Source: Bacteroidetes bacterium GWF2_38_335 (GTDB lineage Bacteria; Bacteroidota; Bacteroidia; Bacteroidales; GWF2-38-335). From it: 64,000 bases of DNA. The notes beneath the pieces are model-generated. The model saw nothing but the letters and a program-made list of their open reading frames with translations. It was not told the origin of the DNA and searched no databases. This document shows positions 2 through 52,960 of this stretch, one piece after another. Positions within the stretch are counted from its first letter, which is position 1. Each line of letters begins with the position of its first letter. The translations under genes and the position numbers were made by a program. Location: positions 1-64,000 of the forward strand of contig MEOH01000007.1 in assembly GCA_001769535.1 (NCBI GenBank). The letters run 5' to 3'.

Positions 2-3000
2 CTGACAGCAGGCACCTGGACCGTTACCGTAACTGATGCCAACTCATGTACAAGTTCATCTAACGTGACCATCACCCAACCGGCAGCGTTGACAGCCAGC
101 ATCACTGCTCAGACCAACGTAAGCTGTTTCGGCGGATCAAACGGTTCGGCCACAGCAACCCCGGTAGGAGGTACCGCACCATATACCTATTTATGGAATG
201 ATCCGGCACCGGCCCAGACCACAGCCACAGCAACTGCTCTGACTGCAGGCACCTGGACAGTGACCGTGACTTCAACAGGAGGATGTACCACAACAACCAG
301 TGCAACCATAACCCAGCCTGCATCAGCGTTGACATCGAGCATTTCAGCCCAGACCAACGTAAGCTGCTTTGGTGGATCAAACGGTTCGGCCACAGTAACA
401 GCAACAGGCGGCACAGCACCTTATGGTTATTTATGGAACGATCCGGCACCAGCTCAGACCACAGCCACTTGTACTGCTCTGACAGCAGCCACCTGGACAG
501 TGACCGTTACCGATGCCAACTCATGTACCAGCACATCAAACGTCACAATTACACAACCAACAGCTTTGACTGCAAGTATTACAGCCCAAACCAATGTTAG
601 TTGTAATGGTGGTACAAACGGCACTGCAACAGTAACAGCAGCAGGTGGAACCGCACCCTATACATATTTATGGAATGACCCGGCACCGGCCCAGACTACA
701 GCCACAGCAACTTCTCTGATTGCAGGAACATGGACCGTGACTGTTACCAGCACTGGCGGATGTACAGCGACAGCCAGTGTAACAATTACCCAGCCGGCAG
801 TACTCGCAGTTGTCATGACAGGCGCCAATGCTTCTTGTAATGGAACCTGCAATGGAACCGGAATTGCGACACCTTCAGGTGGAACATCACCATATAATTA
901 TTCATGGAATGATCCGGGTTTCCAGACAGCCGCAACAGCAACTGGCTTGTGTGCAGGAACATTTAATGTTACTGTAACTGATGCCAATAGTTGTACCGTT
1001 TCCGGAATAAGAACTGTAACTCAGCCATCTGCAATTGTTCTTAGCACTTCTACAGTAAGTGCAACCTGTGGCAATTCAGACGGTTCTGCAACAGTAACTG
1101 CTTCAGGCGGAACATCACCATACACATATTTATGGAACGATCCGGCACCCGCACAAACAACACCGACTGCAACAGGTCTGGCTTCAGGTTCATATTCAGT
1201 AACAGTTACAGATAATGTTGGATGTACAGCATCTGCCACTGCTAATATCAGTGATGCCGGAGCACCTACAGCCACAATTTCTTCTTCTGCAAATGCCAGT
1301 TGTAATGGTGTTTGTGATGGAACAGCCGCTGTTACAGTTATTGGAGGTACAGCACCATACAATTATTTATGGTCAACCGGAGGAACAGGAAATTCAGTTT
1401 CCGGCCTTTGTGACGGAACAGTATCTGTAAACGTTACAGATGCTATTGGTTGCAACGCTTCGGCTTCAGTTGTTATTACTGAACCTGCTGTTTTGGTTGC
1501 AACTGTAACTGCAAGCACCAATGCAACATGTAATGGAACTTGCAATGGTACAGCCACCGTAAGTGTATCAGGCGGAACAACAACATACAATTATTTGTGG
1601 GATAATGGCCAGACTGTTGCCAATGCAACCGCATTATGTGCAGGAACTCATGCGGTAACAGTAACCGATTCTCATGGATGTACTGCTTCTGCTACCAGAG
1701 TTATCACTCAGCCGGCAGCATTGACTGCATCAACCACTGCTACCAATGTTTCTTGTAATGGAGGCGCAAATGGCACAGCCACAGTAACAGCAGCAGGCGG
1801 AACATCACCCTATACCTATTTATGGAATGACCCGGCTCCGGTCCAGACAACTCCAACAGCTTCTGCTTTAACAGCCGGAACATGGTCAGTTACCGTAACA
1901 GATGCAAATGGCTGTACAACATCAGTCAGTGCTACTGTTAACCAACCCGCTGCATTGACAGCCGGTACAACTTCAACCAATGTTTCCTGCTTTGGCGGAG
2001 CAAATGGAAGTGCAACAGTAACTGCAGCCGGAGGAACGTCACCATATTCTTATTTATGGAATGACCCGGCACCTGCTCAAACAACACCAACAGCAACTGC
2101 ATTAACTTCAGGAACCTGGACAGTGACCATTACAGATGCTAACAGTTGTACAACTTCAGCAAATGCAATAATTACACAACCTTCTGCATTGACATCAGCT
2201 ATTTCAGCTCAAGCCAATGTAAGCTGCTTTGGCGGAGCAAATGGAAGTGCAACAGTGACAGCATCAGGTGGAACATCACCATATTCTTATTTATGGAATG
2301 ATCCGGCACCTGCTCAAACAACTCCGACAGCAACTGCTTTGACTGCAGGAACATACGGAGTGACTGTAACCGATTTCAATAGTTGTACTTCAACTACAAG
2401 TGTTGTGATTACACAGCCCGCAGTTCTTACTGCCACTACAACGGTTACCAATGTATCATGTAATGGTGGGGCAAATGGAACAGCAACTATAACAGCAACA
2501 GGCGGTACATCACCATATAATTATTTATGGAATGATCCGGCACCGGTACAAACAACAGCTACATGCACAGGTTTATCATCTGGTAGCTGGTGTTATACAG
2601 TTACAGACGTTAATGGTTGCTGGTATGCTTCGTGTGTTACTATCACTCAGCCTGCCGCATTACTTGCTACAGCAACAAGTACCAATGTGTCATGCAACGG
2701 TGGATCAAACGGAACAGCCACTGCTTCTGTATCGGGCGGAACATCACCATATAACTATGTGTGGAATGATCCGGCACCGGCCCAGACAACTGTCACCGCA
2801 ACTGCTCTGACAGCTGGAACATGGACAGTAACAGCAACTGACGCCAATGGATGTACTGCTTCAGCAAACACAACAATTACCCAGCCATCAGCCTTGACAG
2901 CTACAATTACATCTACAGTAAACGTTACTGTAGCCGGTGGAAGTGATGGTTCTGCGACTGTGACTGCATCAGGCGGAACATCTCCATATAGTTATTTATG

Positions 3001-5875
3001 GAATGATCCTGCTCCGGCACAAACCACAGCAACAGCAACAGGTTTGATCTCAGGTACCTATACTGTTACCGTTACAGATGCCAATGGTTGTACAACAACA
3101 GCTAGTGCTACTATTAATGAACCTGGGGTTCTTATTGTTAGTATAACAGCATCAACTAACGTAACTTGCTCTGGTGCATGTAATGGTACTATATCTGCTT
3201 GGGCAAGTGGTGGTATTACTCCATATGGATATTCATGGTCAAATAGTTCAACCAGTCCAGATTTGACTGGATTGTGTGCTGGAACATATTCAGTAACCGT
3301 AACTGATGCAAACTTTGTTACTGCTTCGGCTAGTGTTACAATTACCGAACCCTCTGTACTTGATGCAACAACAACAGTAACCAATGTATTATGTAATGGT
3401 GGGTTTACCGGTTCAGCTTCAGTTTCATCAACTGGTGGTACTCCTGGTTATTCATACTTGTGGTCAGAAGGAACTGCTTCTTCTCTTATCAATGGTATTC
3501 AGGCCGGAACTTATTCAGTTGTCGTAACTGATGCCAGCGGTTGTACAGTGGAAAGAACAGCTATCGTTACCGAGCCCGCTGCTTTGTCGCTGACTGTAAC
3601 AGGAACAAATATGACCTGCTTCGGAATCTGCGACGGTACCGCAACAGCTTCTGTATCCGGTGGAACAGTTCCTTATTCATATTTATGGACTGATCCTTCA
3701 GTAACTACTTTACTTTCTGTATTTAACCTCTGTGCCGGTTTGGTTACAGTGAATATCACCGACGGAAACGGATGTGTAACTTCAGGAAACTATACAGTTA
3801 TTGAACCTGCTGATATGGTACTTACCATGAGCGGATCTGACGAAACCTGCAGCAATGCCAATGGTACTGCTTCTGCTTCGGTTACCGGAGGAACTCCGAT
3901 ATACACTTATTTATGGGATGGAGGTGCCGTAACCGATAATATTACTGGTCTGGTTGCAGGAGTTTACAATGTTACTGTTACTGATGCAAACGCTTGTGTC
4001 AAAACAGGAACTTATACTGTGAACAATCATGCCGCTCCGGTTTTAAGTATCAGTGGATTATCCAATGTTTCATGTTTTGGAATCTGCGACGGTGCAGCAA
4101 CTGTTGATATAACAGGAGGAACCTTGCCGGTTTCTTATTCATGGTCTAACGGTACGCTCACTGCAACCGATAATGCGCTTTGTGCAGGTACTTACAGTGT
4201 TGTTGTTACTGATGCCAGTGGTTGTACATCAACAACCGATGTAACTATTACTGAACCTGCTGAGCTTATTGCAGGTGTTACAACAACCGATGTAACTTGT
4301 TACGGAGAGCTGAATGGCGAGGCAATACTTACAGTGACCGGTGGCACACCAACTTACACCTACTCATGGTCAACCGGTGGATCAGCAGTGACCGAAAGCG
4401 GTTTGGCTGCAGGAACATATGATGTTACTGTGGTTGATGCCAATGGATGTTCAGATGTTGTAACATTTGATATCCTTACACCTGCCGAACTGGTTGCAAA
4501 TATGTTATACACCGATATTACCTGTTTTGCTGATAACAACGGAACAGCATCTGTTTCAGTAACAGGAGGAGTATCGCCATACTATTATGAATGGTCAACC
4601 GGTTCAACTGCTGATAATATTTCAGCACTGGGTGCCGGATTGGTTAGCTTGACAGTTACTGATGATTCGGGTTGTTCAGTTATTAATACAGTAACCATCA
4701 ATGAGCCTGCACCTGTTATTGCTTCAATTCTTTCGTTAACAGATGTGGTTTGCTACGGTGAATGCAATGGCTCATCAGAGCTACAGGTAACAGGAGGTGT
4801 TCTTCCATATACCTACATATGGGATGATCCTGCAGCACAAACCGATGCGCTTGCTACAGGTTTATGTGCAGGTGAATACAATCCCGTAGTTACTGATGCC
4901 AATGGTTGTTCAGCAACACAGATGGTGCTTGTATACCAACCGGATGAGATTGTAATTTATCCTGTTGTTACTGATGCCAATTGCAGCATGAGCGACGGAG
5001 CAATTTCATTGTCAGTTATTGGTGGCGATGGTTCTTTCTCATATTTCTGGGCAGGAGGCGAAACTACCAGTGACCTTACAGGTATCCCTTCAGGATTGTA
5101 CTATGTGACTGTTGAAGATGGAGCACTGTGTGCTGCAGAAGCAGAAATTACAGTTAATGATATCGGCGGAGCAACCATTTCAGTCAACGTAATCAATGCT
5201 GGTTGCTTTGGCGAAAGTACAGGTGAAGCTTCTCTGACCATTACTGGCGGAACAGAACCATTTACTTACAACTGGTCAACCGGCTCAACAGATGCAACAG
5301 TTACCGGATTGGCAGCAGGATCATATTCAGTAACAGTTACTGATGATGCAGGCTGTGAAGCATTCGAATCATTTGATGTAACAGAACCTGAACAATTGGT
5401 GCTTACAATGAGCTCAACCGATGAAGATCCTGTTGGTGCTTTAAATGGTACTGCAACTGTTACAATCAGCGGAGGTACACCGGCATTTATCATCCAATGG
5501 AGCAATGGTGAAAATACTGAAACTATTGGCGGACTTGCAACAGGATGGTATTATGTGACTGTTATCGATTCATACAGCTGTACCTTGACAGACTCCGTAT
5601 TAGTTGATTTTGGTATTTCAGTTGCCGAAACAGAAACCGGTTCGGGATACAGAATCTATCCAAACCCGACCAATGGTCTTTTAAAAGTTGAGTTATACTC
5701 AATGAATGTAAACACCATTGAAGTAATGGATGTTGTTGGAAAACGGGTATTGGTTTTAGAGGAAGTAAATGTTATTACTGAAATTGATTTATCAAAATTT
5801 GATGGAGGCGTATATTTTATCAACTTATATTCGGGGGATAGAAAGTACACAAACAAAATAATTTTAAAACAATAA
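2..5875 (+). CDS. Giant SprB-repeat surface protein with T9SS sorting domain (5' end missing)
   Basis: The reading frame is open to the left edge, so this is the C-terminal part of a larger protein; the GTG at 65 is internal to a repeat. About 24 tandem units of roughly 75-80 residues are visible, each with a pattern like NVSC-NGG-NGTATV-GGT-PY-Y-WND, then a second Cys near TDANGC, and ending ITQP or ITEP. This is the SprB repeat of Bacteroidota adhesins. The last ~80 residues (YPNPTNG, then VYFINLYSG, then KIILKQ) form a type A T9SS C-terminal sorting domain, so the protein should be exported through the outer membrane and anchored or released at the cell surface. Most units carry two Cys, which could pair in an exported protein. 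The first ten or so units are nearly identical at DNA level, the last ten are diverged. Likely role: adhesion or gliding; the ligand is unknown. Confidence 0.92.
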   Translation: MTAGTWTVTVTDANSCTSSSNVTITQPAALTASITAQTNVSCFGGSNGSATATPVGGTAPYTYLWNDPAPAQTTATATALTAGTWTVTVTSTGGCTTTTSATITQPASALTSSISAQTNVSCFGGSNGSATVTATGGTAPYGYLWNDPAPAQTTATCTALTAATWTVTVTDANSCTSTSNVTITQPTALTASITAQTNVSCNGGTNGTATVTAAGGTAPYTYLWNDPAPAQTTATATSLIAGTWTVTVTSTGGCTATASVTITQPAVLAVVMTGANASCNGTCNGTGIATPSGGTSPYNYSWNDPGFQTAATATGLCAGTFNVTVTDANSCTVSGIRTVTQPSAIVLSTSTVSATCGNSDGSATVTASGGTSPYTYLWNDPAPAQTTPTATGLASGSYSVTVTDNVGCTASATANISDAGAPTATISSSANASCNGVCDGTAAVTVIGGTAPYNYLWSTGGTGNSVSGLCDGTVSVNVTDAIGCNASASVVITEPAVLVATVTASTNATCNGTCNGTATVSVSGGTTTYNYLWDNGQTVANATALCAGTHAVTVTDSHGCTASATRVITQPAALTASTTATNVSCNGGANGTATVTAAGGTSPYTYLWNDPAPVQTTPTASALTAGTWSVTVTDANGCTTSVSATVNQPAALTAGTTSTNVSCFGGANGSATVTAAGGTSPYSYLWNDPAPAQTTPTATALTSGTWTVTITDANSCTTSANAIITQPSALTSAISAQANVSCFGGANGSATVTASGGTSPYSYLWNDPAPAQTTPTATALTAGTYGVTVTDFNSCTSTTSVVITQPAVLTATTTVTNVSCNGGANGTATITATGGTSPYNYLWNDPAPVQTTATCTGLSSGSWCYTVTDVNGCWYASCVTITQPAALLATATSTNVSCNGGSNGTATASVSGGTSPYNYVWNDPAPAQTTVTATALTAGTWTVTATDANGCTASANTTITQPSALTATITSTVNVTVAGGSDGSATVTASGGTSPYSYLWNDPAPAQTTATATGLISGTYTVTVTDANGCTTTASATINEPGVLIVSITASTNVTCSGACNGTISAWASGGITPYGYSWSNSSTSPDLTGLCAGTYSVTVTDANFVTASASVTITEPSVLDATTTVTNVLCNGGFTGSASVSSTGGTPGYSYLWSEGTASSLINGIQAGTYSVVVTDASGCTVERTAIVTEPAALSLTVTGTNMTCFGICDGTATASVSGGTVPYSYLWTDPSVTTLLSVFNLCAGLVTVNITDGNGCVTSGNYTVIEPADMVLTMSGSDETCSNANGTASASVTGGTPIYTYLWDGGAVTDNITGLVAGVYNVTVTDANACVKTGTYTVNNHAAPVLSISGLSNVSCFGICDGAATVDITGGTLPVSYSWSNGTLTATDNALCAGTYSVVVTDASGCTSTTDVTITEPAELIAGVTTTDVTCYGELNGEAILTVTGGTPTYTYSWSTGGSAVTESGLAAGTYDVTVVDANGCSDVVTFDILTPAELVANMLYTDITCFADNNGTASVSVTGGVSPYYYEWSTGSTADNISALGAGLVSLTVTDDSGCSVINTVTINEPAPVIASILSLTDVVCYGECNGSSELQVTGGVLPYTYIWDDPAAQTDALATGLCAGEYNPVVTDANGCSATQMVLVYQPDEIVIYPVVTDANCSMSDGAISLSVIGGDGSFSYFWAGGETTSDLTGIPSGLYYVTVEDGALCAAEAEITVNDIGGATISVNVINAGCFGESTGEASLTITGGTEPFTYNWSTGSTDATVTGLAAGSYSVTVTDDAGCEAFESFDVTEPEQLVLTMSSTDEDPVGALNGTATVTISGGTPAFIIQWSNGENTETIGGLATGWYYVTVIDSYSCTLTDSVLVDFGISVAETETGSGYRIYPNPTNGLLKVELYSMNVNTIEVMDVVGKRVLVLEEVNVITEIDLSKFDGGVYFINLYSGDRKYTNKIILKQ

Positions 5876-39430: not shown

Positions 39431-39665
39431 AGTTCCCAAGTCGGGAGACTTGGGAGAGCAGCGTTAGTGGTTTTTGTAGACTGCCCCAAAGGGGCAAAAG
39501 CAACAACATAGGGCAACGCCCTATGAAAAGAGGTGTGATAATAACCGCCGCTTGAAAAGGCAAAAAAGAAAGAAAAATTCAATAAGCGGCGGAATGTGAA
39601 AATAACACTGATAAACAAATTCAAAGTCAACTACCCCCATGCAGGGAGACTTGAGAGTGGGAAGG
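39431..39665. repeat. Multi-hairpin intergenic element
   Basis: Four perfect hairpins in a row: TCCCAAGTC/GACTTGGGA (39434-39455), GCCCC/GGGGC (39483-39495), CATAGGGC/GCCCTATG (39507-39525), and CCGCCGCTT/AAGCGGCGG with a 30-base purine-rich loop (39545-39592). The end repeats the GGGAGACTTG phrase of the first hairpin. No convincing gene (a 67-codon frame on the minus strand is just these hairpins translated). It fills most of the 299-base gap between the BNR gene promoter side and the AT-rich membrane gene. Confidence 0.75.
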
Positions 39666-48154: not shown

Positions 48155-48172
48155 ACTTTAACCCTGTACCCT

Positions 48173-48220
48173 TGTCACCCCGTCACTCCATCACCCCATC
48201 ACCCCGTCACCCCGTCACCT
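48173..48220. repeat. Octamer tandem repeat upstream of GH109 gene
   Basis: Six head-to-tail 8-mers (TGTCACCC then C[G/A]TCACCC or CGTCACTC/CCT variants) between the kinase-like gene and the GH109 gene. The array ends at the TTG of the -33 box of the next promoter. No spacers. Confidence 0.85.
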
Positions 48221-48271: not shown

Positions 48272-49624
48272 ATGAAAAAACTGTTTTTCCTTTCTTTCCT
48301 GCTGATCAATGTATTGGCATTTTCCCAAACTCAGAAGTTTATTGAGTTTCCTGTACCTGAGCGTCCTGCCGGACAAACAGATGTCTTAAAACTGAAGTGC
48401 GAACCCATCGACACTGTTCGGATTGCCTTTATTGGCCTCGGAATGCGCGGAAACGAAGCTGTACGCAGATATATGTATGTCGAGGGTGTTGAAGTGGTTG
48501 CTTTGTGCGACATGCTTCCCGAACGCGTTGACTCTTGTCAGGCAATACTGAAAAAAAACAACAGGCCTGCTGCTGCTTCCTATTCAGGAAAGGACAGTTG
48601 GAAAAAGGCCGTTGAGCGTGAAGATGTTGATCTGGTTTATATTTGTACCGATTGGCTTTCACATACCGATATAGCTGTGTATGCCATGGAACATGGGAAA
48701 CATGCTGCTGTTGAGGTTCCGGCTGCCACCAATCTGAAAGATTGCTGGAGACTGGTAAATACTTCCGAAAAAACCCGCAGACATTGCATTATGTTGGAAA
48801 ATTGCTGCTACGACTTTTTTGAAATGGCCACATTGAATATGGCCCAGCAGGGTGTTTTTGGTGAAGTGATGCATTGTGAGGCCGCATATATTCACGATCT
48901 CAGATGGCTCAATTTTGATGAAAAAACCGGTTACTGGGATATGTGGCGGTTAAAATATAATACCGGACATACAGGAAATCCATATCCTACACACGGTTTA
49001 GGTCCCGTTTGCCAGATTCTCAACATCCATCGTGGCGACAAAATGGATTACCTGGTCTCCATGTCTACCAATCAGGTTGGAATGACCGAATATGCAAAGG
49101 AAAAGTTTGGCGAGAAATCAGAATACAGCAAAACCAATTACAAGCTGGGCGACATGAACACCACCATCATCCGCACGGCTAAAGGTAAAACCATCATGGT
49201 ACAGCATGACGTAACCAGTCCGCGCCCCTACAGCCGCCTGCACACAGTAAGCGGAACAAAAGCATTTGCTCAAAAATACCCTTATGAACTTATTGCGCTG
49301 GAGCCAAACGGACATTCATTTTTGAATCAGCAGCAAATGGACTCGGTGCTTACCAAATATGAGCATCCCTTTTCAAAAGAGATAGGAGAATTGGCGCGCA
49401 AAGTGGGCGGACATGGCGGAATGGATTTTATCATGGATTACAGGCTCATTTACTGCCTCCGAAAAGGTTTGCCACTGGATGAAGATGTATATGATGCAGC
49501 CGAATGGTCATGCATAGTTGAGCTTTCGGAACAGTCGGTGCTAAACAATTCCGCTCCGGTAAAAATTCCCGATTTCACCCGCGGGGCATGGGATAAGCTG
49601 AAGGGGTTGACGTTTGCAGAGTAG
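48272..49624 (+). CDS. Glycoside hydrolase family 109-like protein (alpha-N-acetylgalactosaminidase type)
   Basis: A 450-residue secreted Gfo/Idh/MocA-fold protein. Signal [20 protein letters not shown]-terminal Rossmann NAD site [15 protein letters not shown] (~55-70), then [54 protein letters not shown], a stretch typical of GH109, and [23 protein letters not shown]109 enzymes use NAD in an oxidation/elimination mechanism to release alpha-GalNAc from glycans such as blood-group A. It has its own promoter but sits after the kinase-like gene in the glycan run. Confidence 0.93.
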
Positions 49625-49964
49625 GGATTAATGGAAATCATTTTTGATAAAATAAAAACAGGTTTTGATGATGCCATATAATTCCGCCGCAAAAAGCATC
49701 TTTTATTTAAAACTGTATTCGTGCGGCGGTTTTTCCTATTTATAGCCATTTTCTACAAAGAGTAAGGTGCTCTGCACCTTTTTTATTCATAAGGTGCAGA
49801 GCACCTTACTCTCTGTAGAATGTTAGTTTTTAAGTATAAAAACGCCGCGCGGGAATATCTTTGTAGGATATTTTTTTTTGCGGCGGAAATGAAAACAAAT
49901 CTCATGCAGGAGAAAATGAAGAATTGTAAAATACCGAATCCCAAAACCGTTGTTTAAGATTAAT
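49625..49964. other. 340-base intergenic region after GH109 gene
   Basis: Holds the 207-bp nested palindromic element and short AT-rich flanks on each side. No gene seen. Confidence 0.7.
49682..49888. repeat. Nested palindromic element, MITE-like, 207 bp
   Basis: Outer perfect 14-bp terminal inverted repeats TTCCGCCGCAAAAA / TTTTTGCGGCGGAA; inner imperfect pair GCGGCGGTTTTT / AAAAACGCCGC; and a central 29-bp arm pair (49752-49780 and 49791-49819, one mismatch) that starts TCTACA and ends GCACCTT around a 10-base loop. Each central arm contains its own AAGGTGC-TCT-GCACCTT palindrome. No open frame inside. It fills most of the gap after the GH109 gene. Confidence 0.85.
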
Positions 49965-50432
49965 CTATTGAACTTTTTTGTAATTCAATGTATTGCCTCT
50001 TCCCATATAAGAAAGAGATAAAGTAGTTTCATTTAATTCAAGGATGTACCAGCATAAATCAGAAGCTTTGCATGTGATGTATCTGTCCTTTTCACCTTCG
50101 GTTTTATTATCCTTATTAAAATCATTAAGGCATTTGTCAGATAAAACAAATTCTTCACTGTCCCATTCGTCCATTCCGGCAGCAATTTCCTTTCGAAGGT
50201 TATTTTCAAAAACCACAAAATTGGTTTTGTCTTCAGTGTGTTGCCATTTACCTTGAAGTAAATCATAATTCGAAACCTCTGATGAAGCTTCTTCCTTCAG
50301 CTCATCAGTTGATTCCTTTGTTTGTTCGGTTGCACCTTTTGATTGTTTTTCCTTTTCAGAGTTTTTATTGCAATTTGTAAACATGATTGATGTAAATAAA
50401 ATTGCAATTGATAATGATAGTATTTTTTTCAT
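49965..50432 (-). CDS. Lipoprotein of unknown function
   Basis: A 155-residue protein with signal MKKILSLSIAILFTSIMFTNC (lipobox FTNC), a Lys/Glu/Ser-rich linker and a ~100-residue domain (NYDLLQGKWQHTEDKTNFVVFENN, YITCKASDLCWYILELNETTLSLSYMGRGNTLNYKKV), a lipocalin-like pattern with GKW near the start and two Cys. Family not assigned with confidence; periplasmic or surface lipoprotein. A -7 box lies 36 bases upstream. Confidence 0.75.
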   Translation of the reverse strand: MKKILSLSIAILFTSIMFTNCNKNSEKEKQSKGATEQTKESTDELKEEASSEVSNYDLLQGKWQHTEDKTNFVVFENNLRKEIAAGMDEWDSEEFVLSDKCLNDFNKDNKTEGEKDRYITCKASDLCWYILELNETTLSLSYMGRGNTLNYKKVQ

Positions 50433-52633: not shown

Positions 52634-52867
52634 ATGAAAATACTTTAAAATAGTAAATGACTATCGGTTTACTTTAATAATTGAAATTTAATTCAGTTGC
52701 CCTTATCTTATATTTTTCTGATGTCGGCCAATTATGTTTTTTATACTATTGGGTATTGCTGAAAAACTGATATCAAATTGATATATAGATTTTTATTATT
52801 GATTTGTATATTAATAAATGCAAGGTTTTAAGAGTTTTTCTTCCTTTTTTCCTTGCATTAGAAAATC

Positions 52868-52960
52868 GTTTTCATTTGCGCCGCAAAAGTAACCATCTTT
52901 CTTATAATGTTTTCGGGCGGTGGTTTTTCCGATTCACACCTATTTCCTACAAATTTAAAC
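52868..52960. repeat. Diverged half copy of the palindromic element
   Basis: Begins GTTTTCATTT-GCGCCGCAAAA, matching the reverse complement of the right end of the 49682-49888 element (GTTTTCATTT-CCGCCGCAAAA), then GGGCGGTGGTTTTTCC and TTTCCTACAAA, matching the inner GCGGCGGTTTTTCC and TTTTCTACAAA of the left half. Only one arm is present, so it is a solo or decayed unit. Confidence 0.65.

Follow-up and report, generated by a model that had tools for sequence, protein, structure and literature searches.

What is the 207-bp palindrome at positions 49682-49888 of the DNA analysed here, a stretch of 64,000 nt from Bacteroidetes bacterium GWF2_38_335 (hereafter the window), and how could so ordered a structure have come to lie there? 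An earlier note, made from the letters alone, had described three nested levels of inverted repeats and had considered a non-autonomous mobile element, a cruciform-forming site or a structured RNA. The element contains two copies of a hairpin, which we call module A, in inverted orientation; between them lies a pair of short hairpins, likewise inverted, with a GGTGC/GCACC stem.

Anatomy of the palindrome and of its composite

The features of the locus are listed below with their coordinates and strands.

48272..49624, plus strand: flanking gene, Gfo/Idh/MocA fold with a glycosyl hydrolase 109 C-terminal domain (Pfam PF21252, PF01408)
49673..49925, no strand: whole composite; left limit from the module A start (covariance model), right limit from the blast match of 49753-49925 to another copy
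49673..49735, plus strand: left module A hairpin, with a CCGCCGC stem, a loop of about 30 nt and GCGGCGG (covariance model R1, E 1.3e-7)
49753..49778, plus strand: REP-like unit 1, CTACAAAGAGTAAGGTGCTCTGCACC (pattern match, 0 mismatches)
49793..49818, minus strand: REP-like unit 2, inverted (pattern match, 0 mismatches), pairing with unit 1 to form the 30-bp central stem (inverted repeat)
49837..49897, minus strand: right module A hairpin, inverted (R1, E 5.5e-7)
49965..50432, minus strand: flanking convergent ORF of 155 aa, no family found (ORF call and Pfam)
52812..52929, plus strand: decayed left-half copy with no recognisable REP pair (blast 52812-52928; R1 at 52867-52929, E 2.6e-9; no downstream motif)

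In an inverted-repeat search the outer arms (49682-49695 and 49875-49888) are 14 nt long and 100% complementary, just as the note had described them; what it had called terminal repeats are the outer arms of the two inverted module-A hairpins rather than established transposon ends. The central arms (49751-49780 and 49791-49820; 30 nt, 97% complementary, loop of 10 nt) are likewise nearly perfect and palindromic in themselves, each containing the near-palindrome AAGGTGC-NNN-GCACCTT. The inner pair that the note had also seen, GCGGCGG with CGCCGC, is imperfect, yet present in the fold. This RNA fold reaches -100.7 kcal/mol (z -13.8), a stability equalled by none of 200 shuffles, and the DNA fold of 49660-49930 has a z of -11.0; the nested palindrome is real and lies far beyond chance, as the note had maintained. 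The sequence would also allow extrusion of a cruciform. The palindrome encloses no ORF that reaches 70 aa, so that the note's statement that it holds no frame stands in this sense, but a mechanical 99-aa ORF (49450-49749, minus strand) does overlap its left part. In a permissive Rfam scan, the microRNA families proposed for the long hairpin all fell below their gathering scores and are attributed to chance.

Module-A copies face each other at four unrelated places of the genome, on contigs C4, C7 (the window), C22 and C19. They are separated by 101-102 nt on C4, C7 and C22, and by 37 nt on C19, whose copy has lost most of its central hairpin pair. The blastn identity amounts to 82% over 231 nt between C22 and C4, 71% over 240 nt between C22 and C7, and 79% over 145 nt between C4 and C7, which indicates that the 207 bp are part of a composite present in several copies. 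Since the match to other copies extends rightward to 49925, the 207 bp given by the note as the extent of the element are not its natural limits, the composite enclosing them on both sides. The decayed half copy that had been reported 3 kb away is real (last line of the list), and includes a module A.

Elsewhere in the window, a tandem 8-bp repeat of the CCCCGTCA type occupies 48161-48218, in the gap that precedes the Gfo/Idh/MocA gene starting at 48272, and a protein stretch with 13 SprB repeats, which point to Bacteroidota, is encoded at 116-3217, with a DNA period of about 234-240 bp. A weak module-A match on the minus strand at 39539-39604 (C7:39539, E 0.03) may be a decayed copy or due to chance.

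Module A and the hairpins downstream of it

A first search of the 5.27-Mb genome with the 207-bp query, in which 40 of 59 candidates were scored, returned 79 matches at E up to 1, many of them both orientations of one place, and two building blocks emerge on reading these matches. Module A is a hairpin of about 50 nt, CATTTCCGCCG[C/G]AA...CGGCGGTTT. Cut with 6 nt on each side, 63 copies are all 61-63 nt long, and a covariance model (R1) built from 51 of them finds at least 108 places at E up to 0.1 in the genome. Four weak matches were left out (C29:11941, partial, E 5.4e-4; C4:1548; C16:173472; C7:39539), and the count used, about 104, is a lower bound because 150 of 5584 first-look candidates were scored. 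The note had set a single genomic copy against mobility; with the composite at four places and module A at about 104, its idea of a non-autonomous element is supported as far as an amplified, non-autonomous repeat is concerned, and gives way where it took the 14-bp repeats for the ends of the mobile unit.

In the stem of module A, 98.3% of cells are paired. The innermost pair is G-C in 30 copies, C-G in 17 and T-A in one, and carries most of the covariation; for two of the five measures, 38 and 40 of 500 shuffles score as high. With filters stricter than those of the own-genome search, a covariance search of 59 other genomes gave no module A in the one of the same genus and a single weak match (E 0.0018) among the 58 of the same order. 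A pattern search of named genomes, a set that may omit the window's own and near records, returned nine matches; all lie in stretches with an open frame of 141-218 aa and have loops unlike that of module A, and we regard them as chance.

Module A and the REP-like hairpins stand in a fixed order: a REP-like motif, of kinds picked post hoc from viewed sequences, follows within 150 nt in 94 of 102 scorable copies (two of the 104 being dropped for short flanks), as compared with 14/102 upstream and 2/102 in shuffled downstream sequence. A motif-free count of stems of at least 6 bp points the same way (74/102 downstream, 24 upstream). A looser motif, CTGAATTGA with two mismatches, was found downstream of 95 of 102 copies, but also upstream of 45 and in 26 shuffled sequences, and we therefore use the stricter count. 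The downstream hairpins belong to unrelated families: 56 are of the GGGGCTGAATT type, 17 of the GGTGC type, and the rest of the CCCCGG, CTCC or GGCAATTGCC types. Copies of module A that have no downstream motif look decayed.

The GGGGCTGAATT-type hairpin corresponds, above the gathering cut-off, to the Rfam family RF01687 (Acido-Lenti-1 RNA). At E up to 0.01, this family has 36 matches in the genome; 26 of them follow module A at 15-54 nt, always on its strand and at a near-constant distance (15-18 nt in 24 of the 26); counting the weak module A at C16:173472, located 16 nt from an RF01687 match, the total becomes 27/36. Both RF01687 and GGTGC units exist without module A as well.

Several copies show further nesting. 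At C10:187191-187664 (L123), three units of module A plus REP follow each other in direct tandem with a 206-bp period. In several of the class-2 copies L126, L132, L135, L138, L143, L154 and L155, the loop of the CCCCGG..CCGGGG hairpin seems to contain a further repeated, hairpin-rich stretch, CGCGTGTCGCTGAAGC...GGAGGCACAA, and a stretch related to it interrupts the 3' arm of module A in L152, L156 and L165, making hairpins within hairpins. Short satellite-like runs, e.g., GACTTTATGGACTTTCGACTTTA, lie to the right of many class-2 copies (L123, L125, L148 and others).

Hairpin families beside Y1 genes

A pattern search (exact or with one mismatch) found 32 GGTGC units in the genome. Among 295 genomes of the same order, eight have the unit, the own genome included, the other seven with one or two copies each. 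Like REP and REPIN units, the GGTGC unit is short, palindromic and present in many intergenic copies, and it forms an inverted doublet in the window. In two of the other genomes (G526 and G373), a Y1 gene has GGTGC hairpins to either side. Across the 18 Y1 loci scored in the seven genomes, GGTGC-NNN-GCACC lies beside two, and one further locus has a reversed stem upstream with no GGTGC-NNN-GCACC. The own genome, a draft that is 96.7% complete, has four Y1_Tnp matches, none of them flanked by GGTGC hairpins; two have RF01687 at 68-69 nt.

RF01687 is linked to Y1 genes in other genomes too. Among the matches listed at E up to 1e-4, the family occurs in 38 of 247 genomes of the phylum, including the own one. 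Distances were tested for 30 of the remaining 37 genomes, each of which has Y1 matches (78 strong ones in total): among the matches listed, 17 of 131 RF01687 matches, from 9 of the 30 genomes, are no more than 700 bp away from a strong Y1 match and adjoin 11 Y1 genes, where uniform placement would give 0.15, an expectation that would be several times higher for intergenic placement only and still far below 17. In G223 (L315, L316), RF01687 matches stand in opposite orientations on either side of a Y1 gene.

We scored 24 Y1 loci, of which 11 were chosen for their proximity to RF01687, four are from the own genome, eight were chosen away from RF01687, and one is L307. The same GC-rich 5-bp stem is present on both flanks in 14 of the 24, a number reached by none of 5000 permutations; mismatched pairs of flanks share a stem in 74 of 552 cases and 570 ordinary genes, all of the own genome, in 10. 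By group, the share is 7/11 near RF01687, 2/4 in the own genome and 4/8 not near RF01687. Further Y1 loci from the seven genomes give 12/18, or 11/17 distinct loci since L353 and L357 are the same ORF; L340 is the gene of L307, and leaving it out makes the count 10/16. For L326 and L354 no ORF was obtained.

The signature Y---Q--HH is carried by 21 of the 24 scored Y1 proteins and by 18 of 18 in the further set (two duplicates), with two own proteins deviating as Q--RH and Q--WH. Acido-Lenti-1 hairpins as well as GGTGC hairpins are found next to genes for proteins of this signature. None of the scored Y1 proteins has the NP of the Y---NP found in class 2. Judged by this motif, they would be of the type of TnpA-Y1 subclass 1.2. 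NCBIfam calls them IS200/IS605 transposases, not REP-associated ones, its REP model being weak on one of five; given this naming, we do not claim the name RAYT for them.

Origin of the composite and its relation to known systems

We consider it fairly probable that the element is a composite, REPIN/BIME-like non-autonomous passenger whose hairpins are spread by a Y1 (HUH) transposase. Its core would be the inverted doublet of REP-like units with the GGTGC/GCACC stem, enclosed by two module-A copies that face each other. A Y1 nuclease would bind such hairpins in single-stranded DNA, cut beside them and re-join them elsewhere; re-joined hairpins would then accumulate beside or within older ones, producing nested palindromes, and module A would either travel with the moving unit or serve as a favoured landing site. 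The anatomy, the copy number, the order and spacing, and the linkage of the hairpins to Y1 genes in other genomes are observed; the mobilisation by Y1 nucleases we infer, and the presence of the same hairpins on both sides of Y1 genes in relatives suggests how such repeats spread. Several observations speak against a REPIN/BIME-like passenger: the own draft has no GGTGC-flanked Y1 gene; in the seven other genomes with the unit, only two of the 18 scored Y1 loci have GGTGC-NNN-GCACC beside them; NCBIfam names the Y1 proteins as IS200/IS605 transposases; the tetranucleotide GT[AG]G is missing from the 5' foot of the hairpin in the GGTGC units, which carry GTAG at their far end, about 9 nt off the hairpin on its 3' side; the oriented local GC skew is positive at 44 of 104 copies and thus indicates no lagging-strand bias, in what is a weak test on a draft of 29 contigs; and a suggestive target duplication is seen at only one of the six copies that have both outer ends.

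A MITE and a structured RNA are both less supported than the REPIN/BIME-like passenger. The MITE would be a unit of about 345 bp with the ends GGGCCTGCTGATAAA and TTAACCAGCAGGCCC, moved by an ordinary transposase and carrying module A and the REP hairpins as cargo. Both ends, allowing up to four mismatches, are indeed present in six module-A copies, in four of them at near-constant distances from module A (-111 to -114 and +216 to +219), and one of the six is flanked by TAATTA on both sides. No target duplication is seen in the other five, however, the window copy has neither end and so lacks such terminal inverted repeats, and most module-A copies (the CCGCCGG class) have other flanks. We also rejected a transposon with GGGCCTGCTG ends, this pattern giving 12 matches, seven of them in known copies or fragments, against 5 in a backward control. 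All in all, a MITE seems unlikely. Slightly more doubtful still is the view of module A as a fixed landing place, be it a host hairpin or an old mobile one, next to which different REP families insert independently and with no joint movement. Several unrelated hairpin families after one and the same module, the 15-18 nt spacing of RF01687, and the existence of RF01687 and GGTGC units apart from module A would all fit such insertions, but the motif-less copies look decayed, no clean empty site was found among the copies in the genome, and composites have been copied whole to four places.

A structured RNA, a transcription terminator or a 3'-UTR element could explain the very stable fold, and the paired family RF01687 is classified as an sRNA in Rfam. 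With respect to neighbouring genes, as predicted by a crude ORF caller, the module-A copies in co-directional gaps are antisense in 31 cases and sense in 20; 22 others lie in divergent and 18 in convergent gaps, 9 overlap a mechanical ORF and 4 are at contig edges. This mixed context does not show the placement, sense after genes or in convergent gaps, of intrinsic terminators or 3'-UTR elements, and we rejected a terminator or leader function on this account. The window has no Rfam match at gathering score, and RF01687 adjoins Y1 genes far above expectation. The structured RNA put forward in the earlier note is hence not supported by orientation or by Rfam, and we hold an RNA-level role of any of these kinds to be very improbable.

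Extending the reading of a Y1-spread passenger, we give about even chances to a broader proposal: Y1 nucleases with Y---Q--HH (subclass 1.2) would each have a REP-like hairpin family of their own and make up a separate, second lineage of REP-spreading enzymes, the Acido-Lenti-1 "RNA" would be one such DNA repeat, and module A would be a new kind of accessory hairpin that combines with any REP family active at the time into nested palindromes. If true, an enzyme subclass described as having no IS behaviour would gain a concrete DNA partner, "mobile DNA repeat" would be the better description of Acido-Lenti-1, a candidate RNA in Rfam, and a single genome with about a hundred copies of interchangeable hairpins would offer a model for the nesting and spread of repeats. 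In the open PMC papers surveyed, we found no pairing of hairpin families with Y---Q--HH Y1 genes, no DNA-repeat view of Acido-Lenti-1 and no module A, nor any link of Acido-Lenti-1 or subclass 1.2 to REP-like repeats.

Nested REP-like repeats as such are of a kind already known. REP, REPIN and BIME repeats with their RAYT (TnpA-REP) proteins have reportedly been described by Ton-Hoang, Nunvar, and Bertels and Rainey. The composite resembles them in its short, palindromic, intergenic units, present in many copies and as inverted doublets, and in having the same hairpins on either side of a Y1 gene, here in other genomes. It differs in that GT[AG]G is absent from the foot of its hairpins, that the Y1 proteins carry Y---Q--HH instead of the Y---NP of class 2, and that module A comes before the units as an additional conserved hairpin. 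Such systems are treated in PMC6006769 and PMC3733652.

According to Quentin et al. (2018; PMC6006769), Y---Q--HH is the signature of TnpA-Y1 subclass 1.2, whose members occur mostly in Cyanobacteria and Bacteroidetes, have a low copy number, generally lack IS200 end structures and show no IS properties. The proteins described here share this motif, the low copy number and the phylum Bacteroidetes. They differ, in a comparison of motifs, by the hairpin families that flank many of their genes; neither the section of that paper on subclass 1.2 nor its REP section gives REP-like sequences for 1.2, and the latter does list partners of other subclasses. Weinberg et al. (2010; PMC2864571) presented Acido-Lenti-1 as a candidate RNA found in Acidobacteria and Lentisphaerae, and it has recently been proposed to help regulate proteases in Tannerella (PMC13298647). 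Many module-A copies are followed by a hairpin pair that exceeds the gathering cut-off of this family, but behaves here as a dispersed repeat and as a flank of Y1 genes; the window copy has GGTGC hairpins instead. Finally, the TIRYT/TIRtrons, and REP units joined to unrelated stem-loops, reported by Di Nocera et al. (2013; PMC3733652) come, in the passages concerned, from other taxa, with other sequences and no module A, yet they resemble our elements both in Y1 genes flanked by inverted repeats of a dispersed family and in their composite stem-loops.
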